DNA from: a bacterium
Lineage (GTDB): Bacteria; Bacillota; Clostridia; Christensenellales; Aristaeellaceae
Length of the DNA: 36,437 bases
Assembly: GCA_029009515.1 (NCBI GenBank)
Contig: JAQXJZ010000115.1
Location: 1-36,437 of the forward strand
Direction of reading: 5' to 3'
This document shows positions 5,875-26,306 of the stretch, piece by piece; the first letter of the stretch is position 1, and the number at the start of each line of letters is the position of its first letter. Below the pieces are notes generated by a model, which ran no database searches, had not been told where the DNA came from, and was given only the letters and a program-made list of their open reading frames with translations. Both the position numbers and the translations under genes were made by a program.

Positions 5875-5903
5875 CATGCTATGTCGGCTGCCGCTGTGCG
5901 TGC
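5875..5903 (-). promoter_or_regulatory. Sigma-K-like promoter of the small Arg-rich gene
   Basis: Minus strand: GCAC (5903-5900) and CATAGCATG (5883-5875), with 18 bases from the A of AC to the C of CATA. This is the same geometry as the cotJ, murA and dpaA sites, and its -35 shares the palindrome GTGCAC (5900-5905) with the cotJ promoter. Confidence 0.55.
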
Positions 5904-5930
5904 ACACAACCCGACGGGACACATAGGTTG
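5902..5930 (+). promoter_or_regulatory. Sigma-K-like promoter of the cotJ operon
   Basis: GCACA (5902-5906), 15 bases, CATAGGTTG (5922-5930). This fits AC-N16-CATAnnnTA except the last base. It has the same spacing and nearly the same bases as the sites before murA and dpaA. B. subtilis cotJ is known to be mother-cell expressed (sigma-E). Confidence 0.65.
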
Positions 5931-5980
5931 ATCATGCGGAGTTCATCCGCACCCATCCTCAGAGAAAAGGAAGGATTGGT

Positions 5981-6376
5981 ATGCAGCATCAGCATTCCAA
6001 CTGCCATACCGGCAGCGTTGGTATTGTATACGGCTGTGAGCAGCGCTTTTCGCAGGTGTATCCTGCCCAGGTCGCGCTGCGCAGCGGCACGCTTTTTCCG
6101 GAACTGAACAAACCCATGGCCTGCGCCGCCGCGCCTACGGGCTGTGCGGAGCCCACGCCCCAGCAGGCGTCTGCCTTTGCTGCGTGGGAGATGAGGCTGT
6201 ATCTCAACACCCATCCCAACGACGAAAGCGCGCTGCAGATGTTTGAACAGATCTGCCGCCAAACCCATCAGCCCAACTATGCCTGCACCTTTGCGCCCTG
6301 CGTTCACAATGGCTGCTGGACATGGATTCAGGACCCGTGGCCATGGGAACTGGAAGCAAACGAAGGGAGGGCGTGA
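5981..6376 (+). CDS. CotJA-CotJB fusion, spore coat protein
   Basis: A 131-residue protein in which two normally separate small coat proteins are joined. Residues 13-46 match CotJA (SVGIVYGCEQRFSQVYPAQ, then ALRSGTLFPELNKPM). Residues 66-125 match CotJB (AWEMRLYLNTHPNDESAL near the start, and the hallmark WTWIQDPWPWELEAN at the end). A Cys/Pro/Ala linker of about 20 residues separates them. Eight cysteines are present, which is unusual for the family and suggests cross-linking or metal binding. CotJA, CotJB and CotJC form an inner-coat complex in B. subtilis. AAGGAAGGA at 5967-5975 sets ATG 5981. cotJC starts four bases after the stop, so they form an operon. The frame is intact, so this is not a frameshift artefact within the window. 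Confidence 0.85.
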   Translation: MQHQHSNCHTGSVGIVYGCEQRFSQVYPAQVALRSGTLFPELNKPMACAAAPTGCAEPTPQQASAFAAWEMRLYLNTHPNDESALQMFEQICRQTHQPNYACTFAPCVHNGCWTWIQDPWPWELEANEGRA

Positions 6377-6380
6377 AGCG

Positions 6381-6980
6381 ATGTTTGTCTATGAGAAGAA
6401 ACTGCAGTATCCGGTGCGCATCACGCGCCCGGACGCCCGGATGGCCAAGGCCATCATCAGCCAGTACGGCGGGCCGGACGGCGAGCTGAGCGCATCGCTG
6501 CGTTATCTCAGCCAGCGTTTTTCCATGCCGCACAGGGAGCTCAAAGGGCTGCTGACCGATATCGGCGTGGAGGAACTGGGCCATTTGGAAATTGTGGGCG
6601 CGATGGTTTATCAGCTCACGCGAGGATTGAGCGAAAAGCAGATCAAGCAGGATGGATTTGACGCCTATTTCACCGATCATGCGCAGGGCGTGTATCCGCA
6701 GGCAGCAGCCGGTTTTCCGTATACGGCGGCCACCATCGCGGTCAAGGGCGATCCCATCACCGATCTGCACGAGAATCTGGCGGCCGAGCAGAAGGCGCGC
6801 ACCACCTACGAAAACCTGCTGATTCTGGCGGATGACCCGGATGTGAAGGATGTGCTGCGCTATTTGCGCCAGCGTGAGATTGTGCACTACCAGCGTTTTG
6901 CCGAGGGGCTGGAGATTGTGAAGGATCATCTGAACGAGCGCAACTTCTACGCCTTCAATCCTTCACCGAGTGTAAAGTAA
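6381..6980 (+). CDS. cotJC: Spore coat protein CotJC, manganese catalase family
   Basis: A 199-residue protein, the typical CotJC length. All five ligands of the dinuclear manganese site of manganese catalases are in place: Glu35, Glu65, His68 (VEELGHLE), Glu136 (LAAEQKAR) and His169 (REIVHYQR). The family decomposes hydrogen peroxide, and in spores CotJC sits in the coat with CotJA and CotJB. The start is ATG 6381, preceded by GGGAGGG inside the end of the fusion gene. A strong terminator follows the stop. It is probably transcribed in the mother cell from the sigma-K-like promoter at 5902-5930. Confidence 0.93.
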   Translation: MFVYEKKLQYPVRITRPDARMAKAIISQYGGPDGELSASLRYLSQRFSMPHRELKGLLTDIGVEELGHLEIVGAMVYQLTRGLSEKQIKQDGFDAYFTDHAQGVYPQAAAGFPYTAATIAVKGDPITDLHENLAAEQKARTTYENLLILADDPDVKDVLRYLRQREIVHYQRFAEGLEIVKDHLNERNFYAFNPSPSVK

Positions 6981-6995
6981 TATTCTAATGAAGAA

Positions 6996-7030
6996 AAAGC
7001 CCGGCCGCAGTGGCCGGGCGAGTTGCTTTT
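6996..7030. terminator. Terminator between cotJC and the CAP-domain gene
   Basis: GCCCGGCC (7000-7007) pairs with GGCCGGGC (7012-7019) around a 5-base loop, with an A-run before it and a T-rich stretch after it. It probably works for both converging genes. Confidence 0.85.
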
Positions 7031-7721: not shown

Positions 7722-7741
7722 AAGATACCTCCGGAAGTGAA

Positions 7742-8274: not shown

Positions 8275-8293
8275 ACTGCAAAGTGAGGTACGA

Positions 8294-8986: not shown

Positions 8987-9039
8987 TTCTGATTATTAAT
9001 TTTTAGAAATCTTTTATTAATAAAAATGTAATATTTGAT

Positions 9040-9275: not shown

Positions 9276-9287
9276 GGGGTGACGGCA

Positions 9288-9791
9288 ATGGATGAGCAGA
9301 TGCATATGGACGCCAGCGCCGCCAGCGAGCGCCGCACGCCCCGAAAGTTCACTTTTTTCGGCAGTTACGACCATTCCATCGACGCCAAGGGCCGCATTAT
9401 CATCCCCAATGCGTACCGCAAGGCGCTGGGAGACAGCTTCACATTGACCCTTACCCTCGACGACCGCGCCATCGCCATCTATCCCGACGCCGCTTTTGAA
9501 GAGATGGTGGAGGCTCTCTACCGCCTCAACCGCCGCAAGCCCTCCGTGCAGCGTCAGCAGGATCACATCGCCAAGTTCAGCTATCCCGGACTGCAGGCGG
9601 ATAATCAGGGCCGTGTGCTTCTGCCGGCCAAGCTGCGCCAGTACGTGCTGGGCGACGCCAAGGACGTGGAAATCAGCGGCGCGCTGGACCATGTGCGCAT
9701 CATCGACAGCGCCGCCGGTCTGGAAGAGGACACCTACTATAAGGAACACCGCGATGAAATAGCCGATGATATCGCGGAACTGGAAGAATAA
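9288..9791 (+). CDS. mraZ: Transcriptional regulator MraZ
   Basis: 167 residues when started at ATG 9288; a GTG at 9279 in the same frame (AGGGGAG four bases upstream) is the alternative. Two SpoVT/AbrB-like repeats are visible: FGSYDHSIDAKGRIIIPNAYRKAL early, and FSYPGLQADNQGRVLLPAKLR later, each with the D-x-K/Q-GR-hydrophobic-P core. MraZ forms rings that bind direct repeats upstream of the dcw operon and control it. The N-terminus is about 22 residues longer than in B. subtilis MraZ, where the protein starts next to the first repeat. In most Firmicutes rsmH (mraW) follows; here the next gene is ftsL-like. Confidence 0.92.
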   Translation: MDEQMHMDASAASERRTPRKFTFFGSYDHSIDAKGRIIIPNAYRKALGDSFTLTLTLDDRAIAIYPDAAFEEMVEALYRLNRRKPSVQRQQDHIAKFSYPGLQADNQGRVLLPAKLRQYVLGDAKDVEISGALDHVRIIDSAAGLEEDTYYKEHRDEIADDIAELEE

Positions 9792-9811
9792 AATGAGAAG
9801 GAGGAACGGCC

Positions 9812-10426
9812 ATGTCTCAGTACGAACCGATGTACGACAGCTTTCGCCGCGCCCCCGCTGAAGGATATGTTCCCTCTGCACGCATGACCGTTTCTGCCAG
9901 CGTTTATCTGCCCGGCAGCGAAGTGGACATGTACACCGGCCAGCTCAAGCCCGATCATCAGCGCCGCCGCCGTATGCAGGCCAAGAAGCTGGAACAGGCC
10001 AGGCTGGAACGCGAAGAAAAGCGCCAGCAGGAAGCCTATGAGAAAGAAATGAGCAAGGGCGGCGTGCGCGTAACAAGGTTTACGGGCATACTGACCATTG
10101 CTGTGTTGATGTTTGTGTGCGGTCTGATGGTTCTGTACCAGCAGGGCCAGATTGCCAGCCGCCAGAAGGAAATCAACCGCATCGAACGCGCCATCACCGA
10201 GTGCCGCAAAACCAACGAAGAACTCAGCACGCAGGTGGCTGCCGCTTCTGATCCCGCCGTCATTTGCTACGCAGCTTCCCAGCGCCTCAACATGATCCCC
10301 TCCGAAGCCGCCCATGCCATCCATCTGACGGCCGTGGATACCCGCCCGCTGGAAAACGCTTCTCAGCCCGTGGTGGTGACGGCGCAGACGCAGAACACGC
10401 CCGTGCCCATGCTGGCCAGCAACTGA
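9812..10426 (+). CDS. ftsL: FtsL-like division protein
   Basis: 204 residues; ATG 9812 has AAGGAGG just upstream. The layout is that of FtsL/DivIC bitopic proteins. A long charged cytoplasmic part (residues 1-88, with a Lys/Arg/Glu-rich helix at 50-80) is followed by one membrane helix (FTGILTIAVLMFVCGLMVLY, 90-109) and then an extracytoplasmic coiled coil (110-150). A short closing motif with family character, AASQRLNMIPSEAA, comes next. The last 35 residues are a Thr/Pro/Gln-rich tail. FtsL forms a complex with FtsQ/DivIB and FtsB/DivIC and activates FtsW-FtsI at the septum. It lies between mraZ and the PBP2-type transpeptidase, the usual place for ftsL. Sequence identity in this family is low, so the call rests on layout and position. 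Confidence 0.85.
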   Translation: MSQYEPMYDSFRRAPAEGYVPSARMTVSASVYLPGSEVDMYTGQLKPDHQRRRRMQAKKLEQARLEREEKRQQEAYEKEMSKGGVRVTRFTGILTIAVLMFVCGLMVLYQQGQIASRQKEINRIERAITECRKTNEELSTQVAAASDPAVICYAASQRLNMIPSEAAHAIHLTAVDTRPLENASQPVVVTAQTQNTPVPMLASN

Positions 10427-10460
10427 TTTTGTCTCATCTGCACCAGAATGTGCGAAATAC

Positions 10461-10489
10461 GCATACAGCGCCCGTGACGTGCATACATC
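10461..10489 (+). promoter_or_regulatory. Weak sigma-E-like promoter candidate before the ftsI/spoVD-like gene
   Basis: GCATAC (10461-10466), 14 bases, then GCATACATC (10481-10489). CATACA agrees with the sigma-E -10, but the -35 match is poor. B. subtilis spoVD is known to be sigma-E dependent. If used, transcripts would begin near 10495, inside the hairpin at 10489-10511. Confidence 0.3.
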
Positions 10490-10511
10490 CCTTTTATGAA
10501 ACATAAAAGGG
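10489..10511 (+). other. Hairpin that overlaps the ribosome binding site of the ftsI/spoVD-like gene
   Basis: CCCTTTTATG (10489-10498) and CATAAAAGGG (10502-10511) form a perfect 10-bp stem with loop AAA. The 3' arm includes part of the GGGGGAAG ribosome binding site of the GTG start at 10521. RNA reading in from ftsL would hide the site. No T-run follows, so it is not a terminator. Confidence 0.65.
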
Positions 10512-10520
10512 GGAAGTGCC

Positions 10521-12644
10521 GTGCCGACCGAACTGCATATCCGCAAACGGGTTTTTGCGCTGCTGATGCTGCTGGTGTTTCTGTTTTCGCTGCTCATGCT
10601 GCGCATCGTGTATCTCACCACCGCTCTGTCGGCGGATCTTACCCGCAGGGGTGTGCGCCAGTGGACGCGGGAAGGCACGGTGTATGCGCGGCGCGGAAGC
10701 ATACTGGATGCAAACGGACAGACGCTTGCGATGAGCGCCACCGCCTACATCGTCAGCGCCGATCCACGAAAGATATCGGACATGTCTTTGTTTACACAAA
10801 CGATATGTCCGATTTTGGATTTGAACGAGGAGAACACGGCGCAAAAGCTGCAGAACAAAACCCGCGCCTCTGTCACCCTGAAAAGGCAGGTTTCGCGCGA
10901 AAAGGCGGATGAGCTGCGCAAGCTGCAGCTGAGCGGCTCCGAAGCGGTGAAGAAGCAGCTGGAAGCGCTCCTGTTTGACGAGGATGTGCGGCGCGTGTAT
11001 CCGCGCGGCGCATTCCTTGCGCAGACGCTTGGGCTGACCAACATTGACAGCGTAGGGCAGTCGGGTCTTGAGATGCAGTACGAAACGCTGCTCAAGGGCA
11101 TGGAAGGCACCATTCTGCGCAGCGTGGACGGCCAGTCGCAGCCCATCTATGACAGCCAGAACCTTTACATCGAGCCGCAGAACGGCAACGATCTGGTTCT
11201 GACCATCGACGCCGCCATTCAGGAAATCTGCGAAAAAGCCATGCGCGAATGCTATGCCGTCAACAAGGCGCAGGCCGTGCATGTCATCGCTATGGATCCC
11301 TACACCGGCGCGATTCTGGCCATGTGCTCCAAGCCGGATTACGATCCCAACCAGCCGCCGCGCGAGCAGGCCGACGCCCTTTCGCAGCTGATGCGCATCC
11401 GGCTGATCTCCGACGCTTACGAGCCGGGCTCCACCTTCAAGATCCTCACAGCAGCCGCAGCGTTGGATGCCGGTGTGACCACGCCGGAGGATTCCTTCTA
11501 CTGCTCGGCCAAAATCAAGGTGGATGGCGATACCATCCGCTGCTGGGGGAATCCGCACAAGGATGAGACCATGGCCGAAGCACTCCAGAACAGCTGCAAC
11601 CCCGTGTTTGTCGAACTGGCCCTGCGGCTTGGCACGCAGCGCATGTATCAGTATCTGCATGCGTTCGGCCTGGGCAGCAAAACCAATGTTGACTTGCAGG
11701 GGGAGGGAAGTGGTATACTGATAGCGGAGCGGAACGTCAAAAATGTGGATTTGGCACGCATTGGCTTTGGCCAGAGCGTAGCCGTAACGCCCATTCAGCT
11801 TTTGACGGCTGCCTGTTCCGTTGTCAACGGCGGCAGACTCATGCAGCCCTATCTGCTCAAGGAGGCTGTTTCGCCGGATGGCACGGTGCTCTACCGCAGC
11901 CAGCCCAGAGTGGTCAGCCATCCCATCAGCGAGGAAACCAGCCGTACGATGCGCACCCTGCTGGAGAAGGTGGTGTCCATCGGCGGCGCGAAGAACGCCA
12001 AGGTGGAAGGCCAGCGCATTGGCGGCAAGACCGGTACGGCGCAGGTGTACAAGGAAGGGCGCATCGTGTTGGATGTGCACATCGGCTCCTTTCTGGGCTT
12101 TGCTCCGGCGGATGATCCGCGCATTGCGCTGCTGGTGATCGTGGACGAGGCGGATACGCCCGTGGATTACGGCGGCACCACCGCCGCGCCTTTTGCTGGA
12201 CAAATCCTTGCGGATGTGTTACCGTATTTAGGTTATCCTCCGGCTGGCGATGAACGCCTGGAAAAGGTGGAAGTGCCGGATGTGACCGGGCTTTCCCTTG
12301 CGCAGGCGCGCAGCCGCATGGCGCAGGCGGGATTCCGCGTGCTGGATGACGGCGCGGGCAGCACCGTGACGGCGCAGATGCCCGCCGCGGGAGCACAGCT
12401 CGTGGAAGGCGGACAGGTGATGCTGTATACCTATACGCAGGATCTGCCCAAGCCTGAGGAACTGGTATGCGTACCCGATGTCAAAGGACAATCGCTGGCG
12501 CAGGCGGCCACGCTTCTTCGCCAGCGGGGACTGGATATGATGATCGACGGGGCAGGCTTTGCCGTCCGTCAGGAGCCGGCGGCAGGCGAATACGCCGCGC
12601 AGGGTTCCGTGGTAAAGGTTACGTTTGAATGGCTCAATCCATAA
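10521..12644 (+). CDS. Class B penicillin-binding protein 2 with two PASTA domains (FtsI/PBP2B/SpoVD type)
   Basis: 707 residues starting at GTG 10521. One N-terminal membrane anchor (VFALLMLLVFLFSLLML) is followed by the PBP dimerisation region (YARRGSILDANGQTLA) and the transpeptidase domain. That domain carries SxxK at Ser304 (GSTFK), SxN at Ser358 (SCN) and KTG at Lys503 (GGKTGTAQV). Two PASTA repeats close the chain (about 583-637, VEVPDVTGLSLAQA, and 649-706, VCVPDVKGQSLAQA). The enzyme cross-links septal peptidoglycan with its partner SEDS protein (the ftsW-like gene nearby). It cannot be told whether it acts in vegetative division (PBP2B), in cortex synthesis (SpoVD) or in both; PBP2B of B. 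subtilis has two PASTA domains and SpoVD one. Its start is covered by a hairpin. Confidence 0.93.
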   Translation: MPTELHIRKRVFALLMLLVFLFSLLMLRIVYLTTALSADLTRRGVRQWTREGTVYARRGSILDANGQTLAMSATAYIVSADPRKISDMSLFTQTICPILDLNEENTAQKLQNKTRASVTLKRQVSREKADELRKLQLSGSEAVKKQLEALLFDEDVRRVYPRGAFLAQTLGLTNIDSVGQSGLEMQYETLLKGMEGTILRSVDGQSQPIYDSQNLYIEPQNGNDLVLTIDAAIQEICEKAMRECYAVNKAQAVHVIAMDPYTGAILAMCSKPDYDPNQPPREQADALSQLMRIRLISDAYEPGSTFKILTAAAALDAGVTTPEDSFYCSAKIKVDGDTIRCWGNPHKDETMAEALQNSCNPVFVELALRLGTQRMYQYLHAFGLGSKTNVDLQGEGSGILIAERNVKNVDLARIGFGQSVAVTPIQLLTAACSVVNGGRLMQPYLLKEAVSPDGTVLYRSQPRVVSHPISEETSRTMRTLLEKVVSIGGAKNAKVEGQRIGGKTGTAQVYKEGRIVLDVHIGSFLGFAPADDPRIALLVIVDEADTPVDYGGTTAAPFAGQILADVLPYLGYPPAGDERLEKVEVPDVTGLSLAQARSRMAQAGFRVLDDGAGSTVTAQMPAAGAQLVEGGQVMLYTYTQDLPKPEELVCVPDVKGQSLAQAATLLRQRGLDMMIDGAGFAVRQEPAAGEYAAQGSVVKVTFEWLNP
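10775..10813. repeat. Inverted repeat inside the PBP2 coding sequence
   Basis: ATCGGACAT (10775-10783) and ATGTCCGAT (10805-10813) are perfect 9-base arms, with a second pair TTTGT/ACAAA in the 21-base interval. The codons here (ATA, TTG, ACA, CAA) are less GC-rich than in the rest of the gene. Confidence 0.5.
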
Positions 12645-12661
12645 GGGATGGAGGAATACAG

Positions 12662-14131
12662 ATGCTACTGAGAGATTTGCTGCTTGAAACGCCCGGCGTG
12701 CTGGAAACGCAGGGTGATCTGGATACGCAGATTGACGCGCTGGTGACCAACAGCCGTGAGAAAACGGAAAACGGCGTGTTTTTCTGCATCAGCGGCCTGC
12801 GCTTTGACGCGCACAACTTTGCCCCTCAGGCCGTGGAAAACGGCTGTACGGCGCTTATTGTGGAGCGCTTTGTGGATTGCCCCGCCGTGCAGGTGAAGGT
12901 GGAAAACGTGCGCTCCGCCATGGCCTACATCGCCTCGGCCTTCTACGGCCATCCCTCCCGCAAGCTGCGCATGATCGGCGTGTGCGGCACCAAGGGCAAG
13001 ACCACCACCAGCTTCCTGGTGAAGGCCATCACCGAGCAGGCGGGCATGAAAACCGGCCTCATCGGCACCACCGGCAACATGATCGGCGACAAGCATCTGC
13101 CCAGCAACATGACCACGCCCGATCCTGTGGATCTGCACCGCTGCCTCCGGCAGATGGTGGATGAAGGCGTGGAAGTGGTGAGCATGGAGGTCAGCGCTCA
13201 CGCGGTGGATATGCACCGTCTGGACGGCGTGATCTTCGAGGCGGCCTGCTATACCAACTTATCGCAGGATCATCTGGACTACTTTGGCACCATGGAGCGC
13301 TATTTTGAAGCCAAGAAGGCTTTCTTCATGCGCGATCAGGTGCGCAATGCCGCGCTCAATGCCGACGAGGACACCAGCGAAAACATCCGCCGCGATCTGA
13401 AGATTCCACATCTCACCTTCGGCATCAGCGCCGATGCGGACGTGTTTGCGCGTGATATCGAGATTTCTGAAAACGGCGTGGAGTTTGCCATCCGCCTGCG
13501 CGGGCTGGAAGAAATGCGCCTGACCATGCACCTCACCGGTATGTTCAATGTCTACAATGCACTGGCTGCCGCATCGCTGAGCATGATCATGGGCATTGAT
13601 AAGGAGGACATCCGCCTGGGTCTGGAGAGCGTGAAGAACGTGCCCGGCCGCGTGGAAGTGCTGGAAACCGGCACGCCCTACAAGGTGATCCTCGACTACG
13701 CTCACTCCCCGGATGCGCTGGAGAACGTGCTGCGCACCGTGCGCGCCTTCACCCGCAGGCGCCTGATCACGCTGGTGGGCTGCGGCGGCGACCGTGACCA
13801 CGGCAAGCGCCCCATCATGGGCGAGATTGTGGGCCGGATGGCGGATTTCTCCATCCTCACCAGCGATAATCCCCGCACCGAGGATCCCATGCTGATTCTC
13901 CAGTCCATCGAGGAAGGCATGAAAAAGACCGACGGTCAGTATGTGATGATCGAAAACCGCCGCGAAGCCATCCGCTATGCGCTGGAAATGGGCGAAGAGG
14001 GCGACGTGATCATTCTGGCCGGCAAGGGCAACGAGACCTATCAGGACATCATGGGCGTCAAGCGGCCCTTCGACGAAAAGATCGTCGTGCAGGAGCTGCT
14101 GGAGGAAATGCGCAACAATACCAAGGAGTGA
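12662..14131 (+). CDS. murE: UDP-MurNAc-tripeptide ligase MurE (meso-diaminopimelate type)
   Basis: 489 residues; ATG 12662 follows GGAGG. It adds the third amino acid to UDP-MurNAc-L-Ala-D-Glu in the cytoplasm. The ATP-binding loop GTKGKTTT is at residues 109-116. The specificity motif DNPRTEDP is at residues 402-409; in known MurE enzymes DNPR marks meso-diaminopimelate rather than lysine as substrate. Other family motifs are TTPDPVDLH, SMEVSAHAVDMHRLDG, NLSQDHLDYFGTM and DYAHSPDALENVL. The start is 17 bases after the PBP2 stop, and mraY follows six bases after its own stop. murF, usually between murE and mraY, is missing here. Confidence 0.95.
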   Translation: MLLRDLLLETPGVLETQGDLDTQIDALVTNSREKTENGVFFCISGLRFDAHNFAPQAVENGCTALIVERFVDCPAVQVKVENVRSAMAYIASAFYGHPSRKLRMIGVCGTKGKTTTSFLVKAITEQAGMKTGLIGTTGNMIGDKHLPSNMTTPDPVDLHRCLRQMVDEGVEVVSMEVSAHAVDMHRLDGVIFEAACYTNLSQDHLDYFGTMERYFEAKKAFFMRDQVRNAALNADEDTSENIRRDLKIPHLTFGISADADVFARDIEISENGVEFAIRLRGLEEMRLTMHLTGMFNVYNALAAASLSMIMGIDKEDIRLGLESVKNVPGRVEVLETGTPYKVILDYAHSPDALENVLRTVRAFTRRRLITLVGCGGDRDHGKRPIMGEIVGRMADFSILTSDNPRTEDPMLILQSIEEGMKKTDGQYVMIENRREAIRYALEMGEEGDVIILAGKGNETYQDIMGVKRPFDEKIVVQELLEEMRNNTKE

Positions 14132-14137
14132 TTCCAA

Positions 14138-15157
14138 ATGCTGAAGCTGATTCTGGCGCTGGTTCTTTCTGTGATTGCAATGCTCATCATCGGCCCGCGC
14201 GTGCTGCCGGTACTGCGCAAGCTCAAGTTTGGCCAGTCTGTGTATGAACTGGGTCCCAAGAGCCATCAGGTCAAGCAGGGCACGCCCACCATGGGCGGAC
14301 TGATGTTTGCCTTTGTGGCGTGCGCGGCGTCCCTTCTGCTGCACGGCACGTGGTATGGTTTCAACGATTTCATCCTCGCGCTCATCTATGTGTCCGGCGC
14401 GAGCATGCTGGTTGGCTTTGTGGACGACTACATCAAGGTGGTCAAGAAGCGCAACCTGGGCCTCATCTGGTGGCAGAAGATCATCGGTCAGGTGCTTGTG
14501 GCGGTTAGCTTCTCCCTGTACTGCTACTTCCATCCCATGGTCGGCTCCAGCGTGATCGTTCCCTTCTTCAATGTGGAATGGGATCTGGGCATTTTCTACG
14601 TGCCGCTCATGGCCTGTGTCATGATCTTTATGATCAACAGCGCCAATCTGCAGGATGGTCTGGATGGCCTGCTCTCCAGCGTCACCGTCATCGGCAGCGC
14701 TGCGTGGGGCCTGATTGCGCTGGTGCTGGTGATGATCGGCGGCGCGGCGATGGATCCTGCCACGGCAGGCAACTACCAGAACATCGCCATCTTTGCCATG
14801 GCGCTGGCTGGCGGCTGCATGGGCTTCCTGCGCTTCAACCATTATCCGGCCATGGTGTTCATGGGCGATACGGGCAGCATGTTCATCGGCGGCGCAATGG
14901 TGGGTATGTCCATGCTCCTGCGCATGCCCATCTTCATGATTCTCATCTGCTTCACGCTTTTGGCCTCGTCTTTCAGCGTCATCATCCAGCGCATCTATTA
15001 CAAGGTGACGCACGGCAAGCGCATCTTCAAGATGTCGCCCATTCATCACCATTTTGAGCTCAGCGGCATGAGCGAGCAGCAGATTGTTGCCATGTATGCC
15101 ATCGTGGAAGGCCTGCTGTGCCTGGTGGCCATCCTGTCGCTGAATCTGATTCCGTGA
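14138..15157 (+). CDS. mraY: Phospho-MurNAc-pentapeptide transferase MraY
   Basis: 339 residues, ATG 14138 with AAGGAGTG upstream. An integral membrane enzyme with about ten helices that transfers phospho-MurNAc-pentapeptide to undecaprenyl phosphate, giving lipid I. Family motifs: KQGTPTMGGLMF near the start, the Asp-Asp pair in GFVDDYIKV, NLQDGLDGLLSS, the FMGDTGSMFIGGA segment with the catalytic Asp, and the His-rich MSPIHHHFELSGMSEQQIV. All key residues are present and the length is close to the family norm. Confidence 0.96.
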   Translation: MLKLILALVLSVIAMLIIGPRVLPVLRKLKFGQSVYELGPKSHQVKQGTPTMGGLMFAFVACAASLLLHGTWYGFNDFILALIYVSGASMLVGFVDDYIKVVKKRNLGLIWWQKIIGQVLVAVSFSLYCYFHPMVGSSVIVPFFNVEWDLGIFYVPLMACVMIFMINSANLQDGLDGLLSSVTVIGSAAWGLIALVLVMIGGAAMDPATAGNYQNIAIFAMALAGGCMGFLRFNHYPAMVFMGDTGSMFIGGAMVGMSMLLRMPIFMILICFTLLASSFSVIIQRIYYKVTHGKRIFKMSPIHHHFELSGMSEQQIVAMYAIVEGLLCLVAILSLNLIP

Positions 15158-15177
15158 ACCTTGGAGGTAAAGAAACC

Positions 15178-16539: not shown

Positions 16540-16569
16540 GCGCATGCGCAACGCCCCTTCCTGCATGGG

Positions 16570-16604
16570 AAGAGATGCTCACCAAAGACAACGCATCTTT
16601 TTCG
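16570..16604 (+). terminator. Possible attenuator between murD and the ftsW-like gene
   Basis: AAGAGATGC (16570-16578) can pair with GCATCTTTT (16593-16601) with one G-U pair, and the 3' arm ends in a T-run. The loop is 14 bases and the stem moderate, so partial read-through into ftsW is likely; no promoter is visible between the two genes. Confidence 0.4.
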
Positions 16605-16623
16605 ATGGAGGGAGGGGAGTTTT

Positions 16624-17739: not shown

Positions 17740-17748
17740 ACGCACATT

Positions 17749-17776
17749 CACACCTTTTCCGTCATGGCATAGGATG
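17749..17776 (+). promoter_or_regulatory. Sigma-K-like promoter before murA
   Basis: CACA (17749-17752), exactly 15 bases, CATAGGATG (17768-17776). Bases and spacing are identical to the site before dpaA and differ by one base from the site before cotJ. A transcript would start near 17783, leaving a short leader with GGAGGTGG before the murA ATG at 17809. Confidence 0.6.
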
Positions 17777-17808
17777 GTGCATATGGAATGCTTGACGGAG
17801 GTGGAGCG

Positions 17809-19074
17809 ATGAACGCCTTGCGAATCCGCGGCGGCAGGCGCCTGGACGGCGAATGGAACATACATAGCGCCAAGAACGCGGTGCTGCCTATCATGGCAGC
17901 AGCCATCCTGACACAGGACAAAACCACGCTGGAGCGCTGCCCCAATCTCAGCGATATCCGCTACATGGGCGATATTCTGGAAACGCTGGGCTGCCGCGTG
18001 AAGCGGAGCGGTGATGTGATGGAGATTGATCCGGCCGGCTTGTGCCGGTATGAGATGCCGGATCAGCTGTCCAAAAAGATCCGCTCTTCCATCTTCCTGC
18101 TGGGGCCCATCCTGTCGCGCTTCCGCAAGGCGGCCGTCACCTTTCCCGGCGGCTGCGAGATCGGGCTGCGGCCTATCGACCTGCACCTGAGCGGCCTCAG
18201 ACAGCTGGGCGTGGATGTGCGCGAGGAAGGCGGGCTGATCCTGTGCGATGGACAGGGCATGCGTGCGGGAAATGTCCATTTCGATTATCCCAGCGTAGGC
18301 GCTACGGAAAATGTGATGATGGCTGCCGTGCTTCTGCGCGGAAGAACCACGCTGCACAATGCGGCGAGGGAGCCGGAGATTGCCGATCTGCAGTCCTTCC
18401 TGTGCCGCATGGGCGCAAGGGTTTCCGGTGCGGGCACGCATACCATTGCCATCGAAGGCGTGAACCGCCTGCATGGCGTGCATTATCAGCCCATGGCGGA
18501 CCGCATTGTGGCCGGTACGCTGATGGCTGCCGCAGCCGCTACCGGCGGAACGGCACATCTCACCAACGTGCCCTGCGGCGATCTGTGCGCGGTGTTTTCC
18601 AAGCTGCGTGAAATGGGCTGCGTGATCACCGAGAAGGAAAACGAGGCAATCCTGCACGCGCCCGCGCGCCTGAACGCCTTTCATCAGCTGCAGACGCAGC
18701 CGCACCCCGGTTTTCCCACGGATATGCAGGTGCAAATGCTGGCTTTGGCTGCATCGGCAAAGGGAACTTCGGTGATCGTGGAGAATGTATTTGAGAACAG
18801 GTTTACGCATGCGGGCGATCTGAACCGGATGGGCGCGGATGTGCTGGTGAACGGACGCACAGCGGTGGTCAAAGGGGTGCCAAAACTCTGCGGCGCACGG
18901 GTGACGGCAAGGGATCTGCGCGGAGGCGCAGCGCTGGCCATTGCGGCGCTTGGGGCAGAAGGTGAAACGATCATCGAGCATGCCCAACTCATCGACCGCG
19001 GATATGACCATCTGGAGGATATGCTTTGTGCGCTGGGCGCGGACGCCGTGCGCATGGAGATGAACACGCAATAA
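17809..19074 (+). CDS. murA: UDP-N-acetylglucosamine 1-carboxyvinyltransferase MurA
   Basis: 421 residues; ATG 17809 with GGAGGTGG upstream. It catalyses the first committed step of peptidoglycan synthesis, transferring enolpyruvate from PEP to UDP-GlcNAc. The N-terminal SAKNAVLPIMAAAIL, with the substrate-binding Lys-Asn, and the catalytic Cys116 in PGGCEIGLRPIDLH are present, as are PSVGATENVMMAAV and FPTDMQVQMLALA. Cys at this position is the residue modified by fosfomycin in known MurA enzymes. Many Firmicutes have two MurA copies. The copy here sits between ftsW and ftsQ, where murG or murB is more usual, and has its own sporulation-like promoter. ftsQ follows after 11 bases. Confidence 0.94.
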   Translation: MNALRIRGGRRLDGEWNIHSAKNAVLPIMAAAILTQDKTTLERCPNLSDIRYMGDILETLGCRVKRSGDVMEIDPAGLCRYEMPDQLSKKIRSSIFLLGPILSRFRKAAVTFPGGCEIGLRPIDLHLSGLRQLGVDVREEGGLILCDGQGMRAGNVHFDYPSVGATENVMMAAVLLRGRTTLHNAAREPEIADLQSFLCRMGARVSGAGTHTIAIEGVNRLHGVHYQPMADRIVAGTLMAAAAATGGTAHLTNVPCGDLCAVFSKLREMGCVITEKENEAILHAPARLNAFHQLQTQPHPGFPTDMQVQMLALAASAKGTSVIVENVFENRFTHAGDLNRMGADVLVNGRTAVVKGVPKLCGARVTARDLRGGAALAIAALGAEGETIIEHAQLIDRGYDHLEDMLCALGADAVRMEMNTQ

Positions 19075-19085
19075 AGAAGGTGTAC

Positions 19086-19958
19086 ATGATGAGCAGAAGA
19101 CAAGACCAGCGACCCGAAGAGCAGTTCGAGAAGGAATCCTTCGAGGCCTACGGCGAGTATACCTACGATTTTCAGCCGGATCCTGCGCAGGCGGCTGCCA
19201 GCGTGGCGCAGGCCAAAAAGGCGCACGAGCGCAGGCGTACACACGGCTTTTTCAAGTTTCTGATTTTGCTGGCTATCCTCACCGTGGGCGTGGTGGTGGT
19301 GCAGCAGACGGTGTTCCGGCTGGAAACCGTGTACGTCATCGGCAACGAGCTCAAAACGCCGCAGCAGGTGGTGATCTCCTCAGGGCTGGTGCGCGGCAGC
19401 AACATGCTCAGCATTCAGGAGGAGGATGTGGCCGAGGCCATCGGGCGCGATCACACCCTCATCTTTGTGGATATGCAGAAGGAATACCCCAACACCATCT
19501 ACCTCTACATCGAGGAGCGCAAGACCGTGGCCGCCATGCAGTGGCTGGGCATGCTGTACACGCTGGACGGAGAGGGCATGGTGATGAAGGAGGAAAACTC
19601 TGCCATCCTGCCCGCCGGCCTTCCGGTCATCACAGGCTTCATGGCCGGTCATGTGCAGGTGGGGCAGCATCTCACCTCCCGCACCAGGGGTCAGCTGGAA
19701 GCATACTGCGAAATGATGAAGGAGCTGAGGCTGCAGCTCTATTCGGATCAGGTGTCTGAAATCAACCTGGCTGATCCGGAAAACATCTATCTGGTCACCA
19801 TTGAGGGAGTGACCGTGCGCCTGGGCAGCAGCGATTACATGCAGGCCAAGATCGGCGCGGTGCGCACGTACATGGCGTATCTGCGCCAGCTGGGCAACAA
19901 GGGCGGCATTCTGGATGTGACCACGCCGGAAGACGCCAAGTATATGCCGGAAAGCTGA
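19086..19958 (+). CDS. ftsQ: Cell division protein FtsQ/DivIB
   Basis: 290 residues from ATG 19086 (AAGAAGG upstream; a second ATG at 19089 is equally possible). There is an acidic/Gln-rich cytoplasmic part (1-54) and one membrane helix (FFKFLILLAILTVGVVVV, 55-72). A POTRA domain follows, starting FRLETVYVIGNELKTPQQVVISSGL, and then the FtsQ beta domain with YPNTIYLYIEERKTVAAMQW. FtsQ/DivIB binds FtsL and FtsB/DivIC outside the membrane and regulates septal wall synthesis. It is probably co-transcribed with murA (11-base gap). A promoter for ftsA follows after its stop. Confidence 0.92.
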   Translation: MMSRRQDQRPEEQFEKESFEAYGEYTYDFQPDPAQAAASVAQAKKAHERRRTHGFFKFLILLAILTVGVVVVQQTVFRLETVYVIGNELKTPQQVVISSGLVRGSNMLSIQEEDVAEAIGRDHTLIFVDMQKEYPNTIYLYIEERKTVAAMQWLGMLYTLDGEGMVMKEENSAILPAGLPVITGFMAGHVQVGQHLTSRTRGQLEAYCEMMKELRLQLYSDQVSEINLADPENIYLVTIEGVTVRLGSSDYMQAKIGAVRTYMAYLRQLGNKGGILDVTTPEDAKYMPES

Positions 19959-20018
19959 AAGGAAAGGCAGTTTTTACAAGTCATATCTCAAATTCGTGAA
20001 AAAAAAGCAGGAATATGC

Positions 20019-20047
20019 TTGCGTATTTATGCCAAAACGGTTACAAT
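20019..20047 (+). promoter_or_regulatory. Sigma-A promoter of ftsA-ftsZ
   Basis: TTGCGT (20019-20024), a 17-base spacer, TACAAT (20042-20047). It is separated from the ftsA start by a structured leader of about 90 bases. Confidence 0.7.
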
Positions 20048-20062
20048 AAATAATGGTACTTT

Positions 20063-20112
20063 GGGTGCTTTGTATGAAGCGCCCTTCCCGCCGTTGTGTC
20101 CAAAGCGACGGC
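20063..20112 (+). other. Two stem-loops in the ftsA leader
   Basis: Stem-loop 1: GGGTGCTT (20063-20070) with AAGCGCCC (20077-20084), one G-U pair, loop of 6. Stem-loop 2: GCCGTTG (20090-20096) with CGACGGC (20106-20112), one G-U pair, loop of 9. They fill the leader between the promoter and the AGGGGAA ribosome binding site of ftsA. No T-run follows, so they are not terminators. Confidence 0.5.
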
Positions 20113-20143
20113 TGATACCTGAGGAACAGGGGAATGCTTTGAT

Positions 20144-21337
20144 ATGAAATCTACCATCGCAGCCATTGATTTTGGCACATGCAAGATCGTGACGCTCGTA
20201 GCTGAGACCAGCGGTACTCAGCGCTGCGATATCGTAGGCGCTGGTACTGCTGCATATGACGGCTTTCTGGAAGGCGAGTGGAACAACACGGTTCTGCTCA
20301 ACGAGGCGATTCAGAAATCCATCACCGAGGCCGAAACGCAGTCCAAGCGCAAGATCCGTGAGATCAACGTTGGCGTGCCCGGCGAATTCACCCGCGTGTA
20401 CGCTGTGGAAACCAGCGTGACCATTCAGGGCGCTGATCCGCATGTAACGCCCAAGCATGTGGAAAAGATTTTTGCCGAGGCGGACAAGCAGCTCTCTCCC
20501 GTGCGCGGCGTGGTGGTTCATCGCAGCCCCGCGTGGTTCATGGTGGACGGCGGCAAAAAGACGCTGGAGCCCGTAGGCATGAAGGGCACCGAACTCAAGG
20601 CTCTGGTGAGCTTTGTGGTGGCGGATACCTTCTTCCTGGATGACGTGATGGCCCGTCTGCGCGACATGAACATTACCGTCAGCGGCTTCTTCTCCTCCTG
20701 CACCGGCGAAGCCATGCTCTACCTGCTGGAGGAAGACCGCGACCGCACCGCCATCCTCATCGACGTGGGTTACCTGTGCACCGACGTCATGGCTGTGGAA
20801 GGCGACGCTGTGATCTTCCAGAAGACCCTGCCGGTGGGCGGCGGACACATTGCAGCCGACGTGGCCGAGGGCCTCAATATTCCGCTGGAGTCTGCCGAGC
20901 AGATCAAGCGTGAATACGTGTATGGAATTTCCACCATCTCGCAATCCTATACAGTGTCCGGCCGCGAGGGCGGCAAGAGCGAAACCTTCACGCAGGATCA
21001 GGTGGCCGCAGTGCTGGAGCCCCGCTTGGACGAGATCGCGGACATGATCAAGGAATGCATCGACGACAGCGGCATCCGCCTGGGCAACTGGTCCACCATC
21101 TATCTCACCGGCGGCGGCATCAGCCTCAACCGCGGCGGCAGGGATTATCTGTCCGCCAAGCTGGAACGCCCTGTGCGCGATACCGTGAAGCGCACCATCA
21201 AGCTCTCCAGCCCCATCTACGCCAGCGCCATGGGCCTGATGGACCTGATCATCGATACCATCGAATCCCGCAATGCTCCTGCCAGCGGCGTGGGCGGCGG
21301 CATCAAGGAATTTTTCAGAAGTCTGCTGGGCGGCTAA
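20144..21337 (+). CDS. ftsA: Cell division protein FtsA (actin-like)
   Basis: 397 residues; ATG 20144 with AGGGGAA upstream. It is an actin-fold protein that anchors FtsZ to the membrane. The phosphate-1 loop AAIDFGTCKIVTLVAE and the adenosine motif YLTGGGISLNRG are recognisable. The C-terminal GGGIKEFFRSLLGG looks like the amphipathic membrane-targeting helix of FtsA. The phosphate-2 loop reads LIDVGYLCTDVM, where most FtsA proteins have DIGGGTTD, so ATP handling may differ. The SHS2-like 1C region (residues about 80-160) is present. The gene follows its own promoter and precedes ftsZ by 48 bases. Confidence 0.9.
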   Translation: MKSTIAAIDFGTCKIVTLVAETSGTQRCDIVGAGTAAYDGFLEGEWNNTVLLNEAIQKSITEAETQSKRKIREINVGVPGEFTRVYAVETSVTIQGADPHVTPKHVEKIFAEADKQLSPVRGVVVHRSPAWFMVDGGKKTLEPVGMKGTELKALVSFVVADTFFLDDVMARLRDMNITVSGFFSSCTGEAMLYLLEEDRDRTAILIDVGYLCTDVMAVEGDAVIFQKTLPVGGGHIAADVAEGLNIPLESAEQIKREYVYGISTISQSYTVSGREGGKSETFTQDQVAAVLEPRLDEIADMIKECIDDSGIRLGNWSTIYLTGGGISLNRGGRDYLSAKLERPVRDTVKRTIKLSSPIYASAMGLMDLIIDTIESRNAPASGVGGGIKEFFRSLLGG

Positions 21338-21385
21338 TAACCGTCCTGCCACCGAAGAACAAAGATAAAGTAGGGGGAACGCACT

Positions 21386-22864
<1,479 letters not shown>

Positions 22865-22953: not shown

Positions 22954-23952
22954 ATGAAACACAGCATGGGCGCCGCTATCACCTGCACAGGCGCGGTGAT
23001 TGGTGCGGGATTTGCCTCGGGGCGCGAGGTGGTAACCTTCTTTAGCCGATATGGTGAAAACGCGTGGTGGCTGATCCTACTCTCAGTGGCCGTGATGGTT
23101 CTGCTGAGCTGCCTTTGCATGCTGGCTGCAAGAAAATGCGCTGCCGACGGATGCTGGTGCGCGCTGTTTGAAGCCGATGGAACCGGCGCCAGAATTTGCA
23201 CAGTGATGCTGCTGGTGCTCACTTCCGGCGCTATGGTTTCCGCTTCCGGCAGCCTGATGGCGCTGCTTTGGGCGCATCGGTGGGCATATTTCATTGGCGC
23301 GGCGGGAACGCTGATAACGGCGTGGGCGCTGGGGAGACGCGGCGTTCGATGGCTGGGATGGATCAGCACGCTGATGACGGCGCTGCTTTTTTTCGCGGTT
23401 GTGCTTGCCATGAGCCGCGCGCCTGAAATGGAAAGCGCACGGCTGATTCCTCACAGCGCGGATGGCTGGGCGGCGCTGCGCGCTGTGGGCTATGCTGCCA
23501 TGAACATGACGCTGGCCATCGGTGTGGTTTGCCGCTGCGCAAATGGCGGTTCCGCGCGGCGATTTGGCTGGGCGTTCGGCAGTATCATGGCCGTTCTCCT
23601 GTATACCAGCAATGCGCTGTATCTGCGCCATCCGGAGGTGCACAGCAGCGCCTTTCCCATTGTGGAACTGCTGCGCTGCCTTGGACGCAAAGGATTTCTT
23701 GTGAGCGTTGCTGTACTGTATCTGTCGGTGTTTACCACGATGACAGCCACGCTGTGCGCACTTGGCAGCGCTGTAAAAAGACCTGCAGCGGTGCTGATTC
23801 TGCCTCTTTTGGCCTCGTGCGCAGGGTTTTCCGGCATTGTGGATCGTCTGTACGCGCCTGCCGGGCTGATCTGTGTGCTGCTGGTGTTTGCGCCGCTTTG
23901 TTTGACACAAATACAAAGTGGTACAAAAGAAAGGCTTGACAATCTGGAGTGA
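22954..23952 (+). CDS. YkvI-like membrane protein (COG3949 type)
   Basis: 332 residues with about ten membrane helices. The N-terminal TGAVIGAGFASGREVVTFFSRYG (residues 12-34, best core GAGFASGRE) is characteristic of YkvI-type proteins, which are related to the APC/LeuT transporter fold with an unwound glycine-rich first helix. The substrate is unknown. ATG 22954 follows a GGGGGGAGGG ribosome binding site. The stop overlaps the promoter of the next gene, so the two are separate transcription units. It has no clear functional link to ftsZ beyond being downstream of its terminator. Confidence 0.85.
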   Translation: MKHSMGAAITCTGAVIGAGFASGREVVTFFSRYGENAWWLILLSVAVMVLLSCLCMLAARKCAADGCWCALFEADGTGARICTVMLLVLTSGAMVSASGSLMALLWAHRWAYFIGAAGTLITAWALGRRGVRWLGWISTLMTALLFFAVVLAMSRAPEMESARLIPHSADGWAALRAVGYAAMNMTLAIGVVCRCANGGSARRFGWAFGSIMAVLLYTSNALYLRHPEVHSSAFPIVELLRCLGRKGFLVSVAVLYLSVFTTMTATLCALGSAVKRPAAVLILPLLASCAGFSGIVDRLYAPAGLICVLLVFAPLCLTQIQSGTKERLDNLE

Positions 23953-23964
23953 ATCAAGTAGGAT
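23936..23964 (+). promoter_or_regulatory. Sigma-A promoter of the maltose phosphorylase gene
   Basis: A perfect TTGACA (23936-23941), a 17-base spacer, and TAGGAT (23959-23964). It overlaps the end of the upstream gene. I see no CRE or other operator palindrome near it. Confidence 0.75.
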
Positions 23965-24013
23965 AGTGACAAGGCTGTACAAACGATTGCACATCCGAAA
24001 GGAGTCCCTTGAT

Positions 24014-26272
24014 ATGAGCTTTGAAATCCATCCTTGGAAAGTGGTAGAAACTGCGCTGAACAAGGAGCATATGCGCCTGTCCGAAAGCCTCACCTCCATT
24101 GGCAACGGCTACATGGGCATGCGCGGCAATTTTGAGGAGGACTACACCGGCGATACCCATCTGGGCACCTACATCGGCGGTGTGTGGTTCCCGGACAAGA
24201 CCCGCGTGGGCTGGTGGAAGAACGGCTATCCACAGTATTTCGGCAAGGCCATCAACTGCGTGCGCATGAACGGCATCCGCGTGGAGGTCAACGGCACGCC
24301 CATCGACCTGGCCAAGGCGGACGTGCTGGATTTCTACCGCGAGCTGGATATGCAGACCGGTATTTTCCTGCGCCGCTTCACCCTGTGTACCCCGGACGGC
24401 AACATCCGCGTGGAGGCCGAGCGCTTTATGTCGCTTGCTCAGAAGGAGCTGCTGGCCATCCGCTACACCGTTACGCCCGAGTTTGCCGCTCACGTGGTCA
24501 TGAAACCCTATCTGGACGCCAATGTGCGCAATCTGGACAGCAACTATGACGAAACCTTCTGGGATATGCTGGCTGAGGAAGAGGGCGAGGACGGCGTTGC
24601 CATCCTGACCAAGACCAAGGAAAATCCCTTCGGCACGCCTCGCTTTGCCGTGGCCGCCGCCATGAGCTGCTGGGCTGACGGCATGGAGATGGAGCGCCGC
24701 AACATGCAGAGCGGCTATGCCGAGGCCGTGTATTCCGGCGATGTGGAAGCCTTCGAGAGCGCGTCCCTTGAAAAGTACGTGCTGTGCTTCACCAGCCGCG
24801 ATTACGAGCAGAAGGCGCTCACCACCATCGCTCTGCGCGCCGCTTCCCGCGCCCGCGAGCTGGGCTATGACGAGCTGCGCGACGCGCATGCCGGTGCGTG
24901 GAAGGATCGCTGGGCTGGCTGCGACGTGACCATCGAAGGCGACGACGCCGCGCAGCAGGGCATCCGCTTCAACCTCTTCCAGCTGCTCAGCACCTATTCC
25001 GGCGACGACGCCCGCCTCAATATCGGCCCCAAGGGTTTTACGGGCGAAAAGTACGGCGGCGCGACCTACTGGGATACCGAGGCCTACTGCCTGTCCGTGT
25101 ACATGGCCATCGCCGGTCAGGACGTGGCCAAGCAGCTGTTGCTCTACCGCTGGCTGCAGCTGGACGGCGCATATGAAAATGCCCGTCAGCAGGGTCTGAA
25201 GGGCGCGCTGTATCCCATGGTCACCTTCACCGGTGTGGAGTGCCACAACGAGTGGGAGATCACCTTTGAGGAGATCCACCGCAACGGCGCCATTTCTCAT
25301 GCCATCTTCAACTACGCCACCTATACCGGCGATTACGACTACATGCTCAAGGAAGGCCTGGACGTGCTGTGCGGCATCGCCCGCTTCTATACCGACCGCG
25401 TGCACTTCTCCAAGCGTCAGCAGAAGTACATGATCCACGGTGTAACCGGCCCCAATGAGTACGAGAACAACGTCAACAACAACTGGTACACCAACCGCAT
25501 CGCGGCGTGGAGCATCGGCCTGTTCGTGACGCAGGCACACCGCGCTTCTCAGGATCGTCTGGACAAGCTGGGCGTGACCAAGGAAGAGATCGCCCACATG
25601 CTGGATGTGGTGGAGCGCATGTATTATCCCGAGGACAAGGAGCTGGGCATCTTTGTGCAGCACGATACCTTCCTCGACAAGGATCTCATGCCTGTCACCG
25701 ATATTCCTGCCGGCGAGCGTCCCATCAACCAGCACTGGTCCTGGGATCACATCCTGCGCAGCTGCTTCATCAAGCAGGCGGACGTGCTGCAGGGCCTGTA
25801 CTTCCTCAATCATCTGTATGACGAGGATACCATCCGCCGCAATTTCGACTTCTACGAGCCCATGACGGTTCACGAAAGCAGCCTGTCTCCCTGCGTGCAC
25901 AGCATTCTGGCTGCGCAGCTGGGCTACCATGACAAGGCGGTGGAGATGTACCAGCGCACCGCGCGCCTCGACCTTGACAACATCAACAACGATACCGAGG
26001 ACGGACTGCACATCACCAGCATGGCGGGCAGCTGGCTGGCCATGGCGCACGGCTTTGCCGGCATGCGCACCACCGACGGCCTGAGCCTGAAGCCCTTCCT
26101 GCCCGACGCCTGGAAGGGATATGCGTTCCAGTTCCACTACCGCGGCCGCGTCATCCGCGTGAGCGTCAAGCCCGGCGAGGCTTGCGTGGAGCTGCTGGAA
26201 GGCATGCCGCTCACCCTCACCCTGTGCGGCGAGGAAATGAAGCTGGAAGACCGCATCGTGCACGCCCTGTAA
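24014..26272 (+). CDS. Glycoside hydrolase family 65 phosphorylase, probably maltose phosphorylase
   Basis: 752 residues from ATG 24014, with AAAGGAG upstream; the promoter position excludes earlier starts. It is probably cytoplasmic, having no signal peptide. The GH65 layout is clear: an N-terminal beta-sandwich (SLTSIGNGYMGMRGNF early), an (alpha/alpha)6 barrel and a C-terminal beta domain. The catalytic acid is Glu482 in HGVTGPNEYENNVNNNWYTN, a stretch very like that of Lactobacillus maltose phosphorylase. The phosphate-binding region near the C-terminus reads HITSMAGSWLAM. Maltose phosphorylase splits maltose with phosphate to glucose and beta-glucose 1-phosphate. Kojibiose or trehalose phosphorylase cannot be fully excluded. 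No beta-phosphoglucomutase gene is adjacent; it would be the expected partner. Confidence 0.85.
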   Translation: MSFEIHPWKVVETALNKEHMRLSESLTSIGNGYMGMRGNFEEDYTGDTHLGTYIGGVWFPDKTRVGWWKNGYPQYFGKAINCVRMNGIRVEVNGTPIDLAKADVLDFYRELDMQTGIFLRRFTLCTPDGNIRVEAERFMSLAQKELLAIRYTVTPEFAAHVVMKPYLDANVRNLDSNYDETFWDMLAEEEGEDGVAILTKTKENPFGTPRFAVAAAMSCWADGMEMERRNMQSGYAEAVYSGDVEAFESASLEKYVLCFTSRDYEQKALTTIALRAASRARELGYDELRDAHAGAWKDRWAGCDVTIEGDDAAQQGIRFNLFQLLSTYSGDDARLNIGPKGFTGEKYGGATYWDTEAYCLSVYMAIAGQDVAKQLLLYRWLQLDGAYENARQQGLKGALYPMVTFTGVECHNEWEITFEEIHRNGAISHAIFNYATYTGDYDYMLKEGLDVLCGIARFYTDRVHFSKRQQKYMIHGVTGPNEYENNVNNNWYTNRIAAWSIGLFVTQAHRASQDRLDKLGVTKEEIAHMLDVVERMYYPEDKELGIFVQHDTFLDKDLMPVTDIPAGERPINQHWSWDHILRSCFIKQADVLQGLYFLNHLYDEDTIRRNFDFYEPMTVHESSLSPCVHSILAAQLGYHDKAVEMYQRTARLDLDNINNDTEDGLHITSMAGSWLAMAHGFAGMRTTDGLSLKPFLPDAWKGYAFQFHYRGRVIRVSVKPGEACVELLEGMPLTLTLCGEEMKLEDRIVHAL

Positions 26273-26278
26273 CAACCG

Positions 26279-26306
26279 CACAACTTGTCGCCTCCCGCAT
26301 AGGATG
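26279..26306 (+). promoter_or_regulatory. Sigma-K-like promoter of dpaA-dpaB
   Basis: CACA (26279-26282), 15 bases, CATAGGATG (26298-26306). The same motif and spacing occur before murA and (one base different) cotJ. spoVF of B. subtilis is known to be sigma-K controlled. The expected start near 26312 lies beyond the 5' arm of the terminator hairpin, so this transcript keeps the ribosome binding site free. Confidence 0.7.

Follow-up and report, generated by a model that had tools for sequence, protein, structure and literature searches.

A putative sigma-K class promoter set within predicted read-through hairpins upstream of dpaA and murA in a genus of Aristaeellaceae

What is the short motif that stands at identical spacing before cotJ, murA and dpaA in a single contig of an Aristaeellaceae genome (JAQXJZ010000115.1; 36,437 nucleotides, the whole stretch analysed, hereafter the window)? 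An earlier note had read CACA-N15-CATAGGWTG at these three places as a possible lineage-specific form of the late mother-cell promoter, and all three sites are present, exact and on the plus strand (Table 1). We estimate a probability of roughly 0.7 that the motif is a promoter of the sigma-K class in the form used by this genus, and that at dpaA (strongly) and at murA (more weakly) it would be set within an RNA hairpin that blocks read-through. Statements from the literature below refer to the excerpts of the cited papers that were available.

The window belongs to G000, a draft genome of 3,020,060 bases in 175 contigs (86% complete). The comparison covered 17 genomes of the genus (G000 included), 19 of the family outside the genus and 24 of the wider order; all are drafts and some are incomplete. 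In G000, the exact pattern was found three times forward, never in reverse, and never as the reversed pattern, and the three sites in the window were its only matches. Allowing one mismatch added four sites (seven in all), each of which breaks CATA. The exact pattern was therefore rejected as the means of finding the whole regulon that had been hoped for. Further, because these three sites served to build the pattern, its rarity in its own genome is not independent evidence, and the claim that the recurrence was very unlikely by chance draws little strength from it. With two mismatches allowed, the window holds four matches, a number reached by 7 of 100 shuffles. Together with the origin of the pattern, this count is what could be said for chance, or for an artefact of fitting a pattern to three sites.

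The claim holds on other grounds, namely conservation before orthologous genes. An exact match was present in 11 of the 16 other genomes of the genus, in one of the 19 family members outside the genus and in none of the 24 genomes of the wider order. Within the genus, G000 included, it preceded murA in 12/17 and dpaA in 4/17 genomes, and the spacer letters differed. When upstream regions were taken by gene rather than by motif, CAC at a gap of 16 followed by CATANNATG was found before murA in all 17 genomes, and before dpaA, also in all 17, CAC or AAC separated by 16 or 17 bases from CATANNATG. For cotJC, which was matched in 13 genomes of the genus (one fragment, in G015, was left out), [AC]AC-N16/17-CATANN[AT]TG lay within 1.5 kb upstream in 10 of the 12 genomes examined, the misses being G007 and G011. 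Outside the genus, a looser form, [AC]AC-N16/17-CATANN[AT]T[AG], lay no more than 130 bases before 10 of 13 murA and 2 of 5 dpaA matches; where a genome is rich in A+T, some of these sites may have arisen by chance, and in G036 and G049 the match to dpaA begins away from the gene start. The 17/17 conservation at two genes, with orthologues taken by gene, decides the matter, and the probability we leave to chance is negligible. The motif is confirmed as real, and its core in this genus is [CA]AC-N16/17-CATANNATG.

A relaxed pattern, CACM-N15/16-CATANNATG, gave 134 matches in the 17 genomes of the genus, compared with 22 for the reversed pattern and 49 at a wrong gap (N11/12), at least two of the latter overlapping true sites. 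Among the 133 relaxed sites analysed in detail, one of which (L020, with GG) comes from another genus, the two NN positions were GG in 58, compared with 6/49 at the wrong gap. As a proxy for the comparison of coding with upstream positions, we scored gene starts. A strong Shine-Dalgarno sequence and a 40-codon frame within 60 nt followed 31/58 GG sites, 22/75 other sites and 94/2905 random positions of the stretches analysed; under weaker demands (160 bases), the values were 53/58, 48/75 and 814/2897. Since the rates of the non-GG sites were lower than those of the GG sites, a considerable share of the non-GG matches may have arisen by chance. As a consensus, CATAGGWTG accordingly stands in that GG is favoured, and does not stand in that GG is not required. 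An open frame running across the motif was rejected as a test of coding, because true promoters too lie in long stop-to-stop frames.

Many of the relaxed sites stand in front of coat-type genes. The genes behind these sites encode CotJA/CotJB, a collagen-like protein, a DUF11 repeat protein, an ice-binding-like adhesive protein and cysteine-rich proteins without a family. Others encode FeoA, a PRC-barrel protein, MazF-type proteins and an amino-acid kinase with ACT domains, which we read as of the aspartokinase type; aspartokinase is an enzyme of dipicolinate precursor synthesis. In G000, MAC-N16/17-CATANNATG had 16 matches, compared with seven for the reversed pattern. Eight of the 16 stand before a gene that could plausibly belong to the regulon: murA, dpaA, a small gene of an unnamed family (WMRPAL, described below), the aspartokinase gene, a gene for a DUF11 protein, L277 (which by eye resembles L202), a gene for a 151-residue protein and possibly L281. 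Among the remaining sites, no gene follows at six, and the gene that follows at the other two is weak. The cotJ site of the window, which ends in TTG, falls outside this pattern. In six or more genomes of the genus, the motif is followed by a MazF/PemK-type gene (L144, L186, L195, L199, L213 and L230), one locus being confirmed with Pfam and the others alike by eye.

Which sigma factor might read the motif? In C. difficile, AC in the -35 element marks sigma-K promoters and ATA those of sigma-E, the -10 boxes being similar (PMC3789822), and in B. subtilis the gap of sigma-K promoters, counted from a 5-nt -35 element to a 10-nt -10 element, is 15 +/- 1 (PMC517825). In the genus studied here, the -35 element before murA was CAC in 17/17 genomes and that before dpaA CAC or AAC in 17/17, and the sigma-E-type ATA was found at none of the 34 sites. 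The gap after the C was 16 or 17 at all 34 sites, which fits the sigma-K spacing AC-N16-CATA. The sigma-K consensus for the -10 element is CATAnnnTA. Compared with it, CATA and the T were present at 34/34 sites and the last base was G at 34/34, with A at some sites outside the genus only. Further, the motif stands before late mother-cell genes, as judged by homology only. G000 encodes both sigma factors: SigK scored 271.9 bits, above the NF004471 cut-off (252), and 274.8 bits, below the TIGR02846 cut-off (298.65), whereas SigE was over the NF006158 cut-off and under that of TIGR02835. The former contains ISRSY and the latter ISQSY; we take the Q of ISQSY to be the residue of sigma-E that concerns the -35 element, and the R to be its sigma-K counterpart. 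A Q is described as the sigma-E -35 determinant (PMC517825).

That these are instead sigma-E promoters is conceivable in that both factors use a CATA -10 element, sigE is present in G000 and cotJ belongs to the sigma-E operons of B. subtilis. We consider this distinctly improbable, since the -35 element is AC rather than ATA. As a control we used spoIVA, a gene of the sigma-E type: the motif was absent from the 200 bases upstream of it in all 16 of the 17 genomes that have spoIVA (0/16). In C. difficile, the cotJB2 operon, like the bclA genes, is counted in the sigma-K regulon (PMC3789822). Sigma-K is the best name because of the AC in the -35 element, the spacing, the target genes, the presence of sigK and the result for spoIVA, and the mother-cell assignment proposed earlier agrees with these features and with CATA. 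The best reading is thus a putative promoter of the sigma-K class in a genus form, with -35 [CA]AC, 16-17 bases and -10 CATANNATG, GG preferred; we infer promoter activity, start point and sigma-K dependence from the motif and its conservation before orthologues.

At dpaA, the putative promoter coincides with a predicted hairpin (-32.4 kcal/mol, z -5.76; 0/200 shuffles fold as well). Its 5' arm consists of the promoter spacer and GATG of the -10 element, and its 3' arm holds the Shine-Dalgarno sequence. In 17/17 orthologues, the 5' arm lies upstream of the inferred start and the 3' arm on the Shine-Dalgarno sequence, an arrangement of the sigG type, and a T-run of 4 to 7 follows the stem, giving the layout of an intrinsic terminator (a G+C-rich stem and then a T-run). 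In read-through RNA, the predicted probability that the Shine-Dalgarno sequence is unpaired was 0.00 in 16 of 17 genomes and 0.20 in G003; in promoter-started RNA, for which the start was assumed 6 bases after the -10 element here and in all such computations, it was 0.15-0.83. When the 5' halves of other leaders were substituted, it averaged 0.19-0.45. Swapping partners among the 17 leaders changed the pairing energy from -22.5 kcal/mol (cognate) to -16.7 kcal/mol (0/20000 permutations), and as the genomes are related and not independent, this and the other partner-swap permutations overstate certainty. Over the 17 leaders, 93.3% of cells were paired, compared with 87.8% in shuffles (0/500 as high) and 38-54% when the arms were slid, and 20 cells were changed on both sides (0/500 shuffles). 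The predicted dpaA hairpin thus covaries through the genus.

To compare leaders, 102 sites were folded, namely 17 murA, 17 dpaA and 68 other rows, each with 60 spacer shuffles as null. Relaxed sites lacking a Shine-Dalgarno sequence and frame, or lying over 110 nt away from the Shine-Dalgarno sequence, were left out; all murA and dpaA sites were retained, two sites of the window were added, and one of the 68 rows (L022) is the murA of G010 present a second time. Values at or below 0.02 were obtained for 17/17 dpaA sites, 14/17 murA sites and 15/68 other rows. At murA of the window, the predicted hairpin (-20.8 kcal/mol, z -2.08) joins the promoter spacer and -10 element to the Shine-Dalgarno sequence, whose unpaired probability was 0.00 in read-through RNA and 0.75 in promoter-started RNA. 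The murA Shine-Dalgarno sequence was hidden by 0.2 or more in read-through RNA in 11 of the 17 genomes, and among 16 distinct leaders cognate partners paired at -14.8 kcal/mol compared with -10.7 kcal/mol when swapped (0/20000 permutations).

Several results weigh against such hairpins, mostly at murA. The murA of the window is a weak case: 7/200 shuffles fold as well, and 10 of 15 foreign 3' sides are better partners for its 5' side than its own. RNAalifold gave no consensus pairs on the murA leaders, and the murA of G003 bridges below the null mean. The murA Shine-Dalgarno sequence is about half free in G009, G011 and G015, and for G006, G008, G011, G013 and G015 read-through RNA conceals it no better than RNA from the promoter does. 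At dpaA, five pairs changed on both sides (131/500 shuffles) and the count of pair types (120/500) were not above shuffles, a simple terminator scan listed just a 6-pair part of the hairpin, and outside the genus neither of the two scored dpaA sites showed it. Further, partner swaps showed no cognate preference in the cotJ, MazF and adhesive families.

Among the other leaders, those of two cysteine-rich coat-type genes (L226 and L247) have, by reading, a hairpin that begins inside the -10 element and ends in T, and for a protein of G000 (C29:5738) the spacer AACCTCCT pairs with its AGGAGGTT. The partner swap for the WMRPAL family gave 444/20000 permutations. A hairpin beyond the genus was unsupported: among two dpaA and seven murA sites scored, from a hand-picked sample of 3 dpaA and 7 murA genomes (drawn from 13 murA loci and the available dpaA loci), the murA of G045 alone beat the spacer-shuffle null.

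The covarying hairpin, with CATAGGATG inside it at dpaA, could also be taken as a sign that the motif is no promoter, and is instead a conserved RNA element, a leader or attenuator with a CATAGGATG loop. Against this, identical letters, equally far from the -35 element, stand before genes that have no such hairpin, and outside the genus the looser site was kept before 10/13 murA, whereas one of seven murA sites scored had a hairpin. As Rfam also had no match anywhere in the window, we regard such an element as very unlikely.

A stronger objection grants the sigma-K promoters and holds that the hairpins are mere intrinsic terminators of upstream genes in short gaps, the pairing with the Shine-Dalgarno sequence being a by-product without a role. 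The dpaA hairpin starts 14 bases past the upstream gene's stop and ends in T6, and in several coat-type leaders the Shine-Dalgarno sequence is, by reading, preceded by a hairpin and T-run, as this view would have it. However, the murA hairpin has no T-run and lies directly behind an ftsW-type gene, yet its arms favour their own partners; termination, moreover, would still give read-through control. We think this explanation rather unlikely.

In the reading that we prefer, a sigma-K class promoter laid inside an RNA hairpin, dpaA and murA would be open to read-through because each sits close behind another gene: dpaA 64 bases behind a co-directional GH65 gene, and murA directly behind the ftsW-type gene (ftsW and murA checked by Pfam). 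RNA arriving from further upstream would carry the letters of the spacer and -10 element, which would pair with the Shine-Dalgarno sequence and prevent translation; at dpaA, the hairpin and T-run might also stop the arriving polymerase. RNA begun a few bases after the -10 element would lack the 5' arm, leaving the Shine-Dalgarno sequence freer. The termination and the translational block at these two genes we infer from predicted pairing and covariation. More tentatively, with somewhat less than an even chance, the late mother-cell regulon of the genus may be insulated by design, with sigma-K promoters inside terminator or anti-Shine-Dalgarno hairpins from which only promoter-begun RNA escapes. 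The murA of the dcw cluster would thereby be silent in the vegetative division transcript and supply a MurA for sporulation only. Every genome of the genus has at least three MurA-type matches (the dcw copy and at least two more), and the dcw copy therefore need not serve growth.

Table 1. Features of the window, and cotJC loci split in relatives.
Feature	Position	Strand	Remarks
Small gene, unnamed family	5511..5840	-	WMRPALxKSEAVLLPALxR; behind the fourth site
Fourth site, divergent	5875..5902	-	CACG, N15, CATAGCATG; 34 nt before ATG at 5840
cotJ promoter-like site	5903..5930	+	CACA 5903-5906, N15, CATAGGTTG 5922-5930
CotJA-CotJB fusion	5981..6376	+	One frame; Pfam CotJB 52.1 bits, CotJA 33.7 bits, both above cut-off
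cotJC, manganese catalase type	6381..6980	+	Intact; Pfam Mn_catalase
murA promoter-like site	17749..17776	+	CACA, N15, CATAGGATG 17768-17776
murA predicted hairpin	17751..17803	+	Promoter spacer and -10 element with murA Shine-Dalgarno sequence
murA-type gene	17809..19074	+	dcw cluster; Pfam
GH65 frame (glycosyl hydrolase family 65)	23918..26272	+	Upstream of dpaA; stop 6 bases before the dpaA promoter site
dpaA promoter-like site	26279..26306	+	CACA, N15, CATAGGATG 26298-26306
dpaA predicted hairpin	26287..26333	+	12-bp outer stem, 7-bp inner stem
dpaA Shine-Dalgarno sequence	26324-26329	+	GGGAGG; within hairpin 3' arm
T6 run	26333..26338	+	Directly after stem; overlaps dpaA start codon (TTG)
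dpaA (dipicolinate synthase subunit A)	26337..27137	+	TTG start 7 nt after GGGAGG; Pfam DpaA_N above cut-off
Split cotJC loci in relatives	G001:C4:32120-32536 + 43361-43582; G016:C23; G051:C41; G046:C4; G036:C3		L101/L111, L103/L114, L106/L113, L107/L115, L105/L116

The dpaA product fell under the cut-offs of the NCBIfam DpsA and DpaA models. The cluster around murA (9279-22864) is of the dcw type, with murA immediately behind the ftsW-type gene, a place usually occupied by murG; the frames after murA were read by eye as ftsQ, ftsA and ftsZ. Neither murG nor murF, murC or murB could be made out by eye among the listed frames of the window, and no dedicated search for them was made.

The earlier note overlooked the fourth site, CAC-N16-CATAGCATG on the minus strand (5902-5875). 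It abuts the cotJ site exactly, the minus site ending at 5902 and the plus site beginning at 5903, so that two divergent spore-type sites adjoin. The gene behind it belongs to a family of about 110 residues (also written WMRPALxKSEAVLLPALP) with its own sigma-K-like promoter, the motif being kept in relatives; its members are the window gene, L160, L162, L170, L183, L204, L231, L246 and L250. No Pfam or NCBIfam match was found for L160. In the four relatives that carry this gene and murA on one contig (G003, G010, G012 and G014), it lies 11.0-11.5 kb before murA.

In five relatives, the cotJC match was broken into two parts, which lie 3-11 kb from each other and share some residues at their ends (Table 1); in G010 the parts lie on two contigs. 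The pattern is like that of intervening elements of the skin type, which are excised during sporulation. At 370-2577 of the window, a 735-codon frame has, by eye, a secreted solute-binding-like first half and an EamA-type transporter second half, and may be a fusion, a read-through or an assembly join.

The motif offers a promoter signature that can be used for late spore genes of a genus represented here by draft genomes only, and the promoter alone points to unnamed coat-type families. If the proposed layout is true, compact genomes could shield developmental genes from leaky expression by placing the promoter inside the barrier rather than behind it, and such a layout could be overlooked by searches that handle promoters and terminators separately.

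The putative promoters resemble the sigma-K promoters of B. subtilis and C. difficile in the AC of the -35 element, in the gap of about 15-17 bases, in a CATA shared with sigma-E and in their coat, exosporium and CotJ targets (PMC3789822, PMC517825). They differ in a -10 element that ends in ATG rather than TA, in the preference for GG and in having the murA of a dcw cluster as a target; murA is unnamed in the available text of PMC517825, and no further search was made. In the titles and abstract openings of the open-licence literature, no promoter inside a spore-gene hairpin was described beyond sigG. As far as our searches went, the new features are an arm made of the promoter itself, the T-run at dpaA, the sigma-K class of the genes and the covariation within one genus. 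A parallel in layout is the fold-back inhibition of IS10/IS50 transposase, in which read-through RNA hides the Shine-Dalgarno sequence and promoter RNA does not; IS10 and IS50 are mobile elements, whereas a developmental regulon would be concerned here. The closest precedent is sigG (spoIIIG) of B. subtilis, where RNA read through from spoIIG is predicted to form a large hairpin that blocks its translation, a structure that cannot form in RNA from sigG's own promoter (PMC5942855). The likeness lies in a hairpin present in read-through RNA and absent from own-promoter RNA. Unlike sigG, a forespore regulator, the genes here are dpaA and murA, the arm would be made of the letters of the promoter spacer and -10 element, a T-run follows at dpaA, and the predicted arms covary through a genus.

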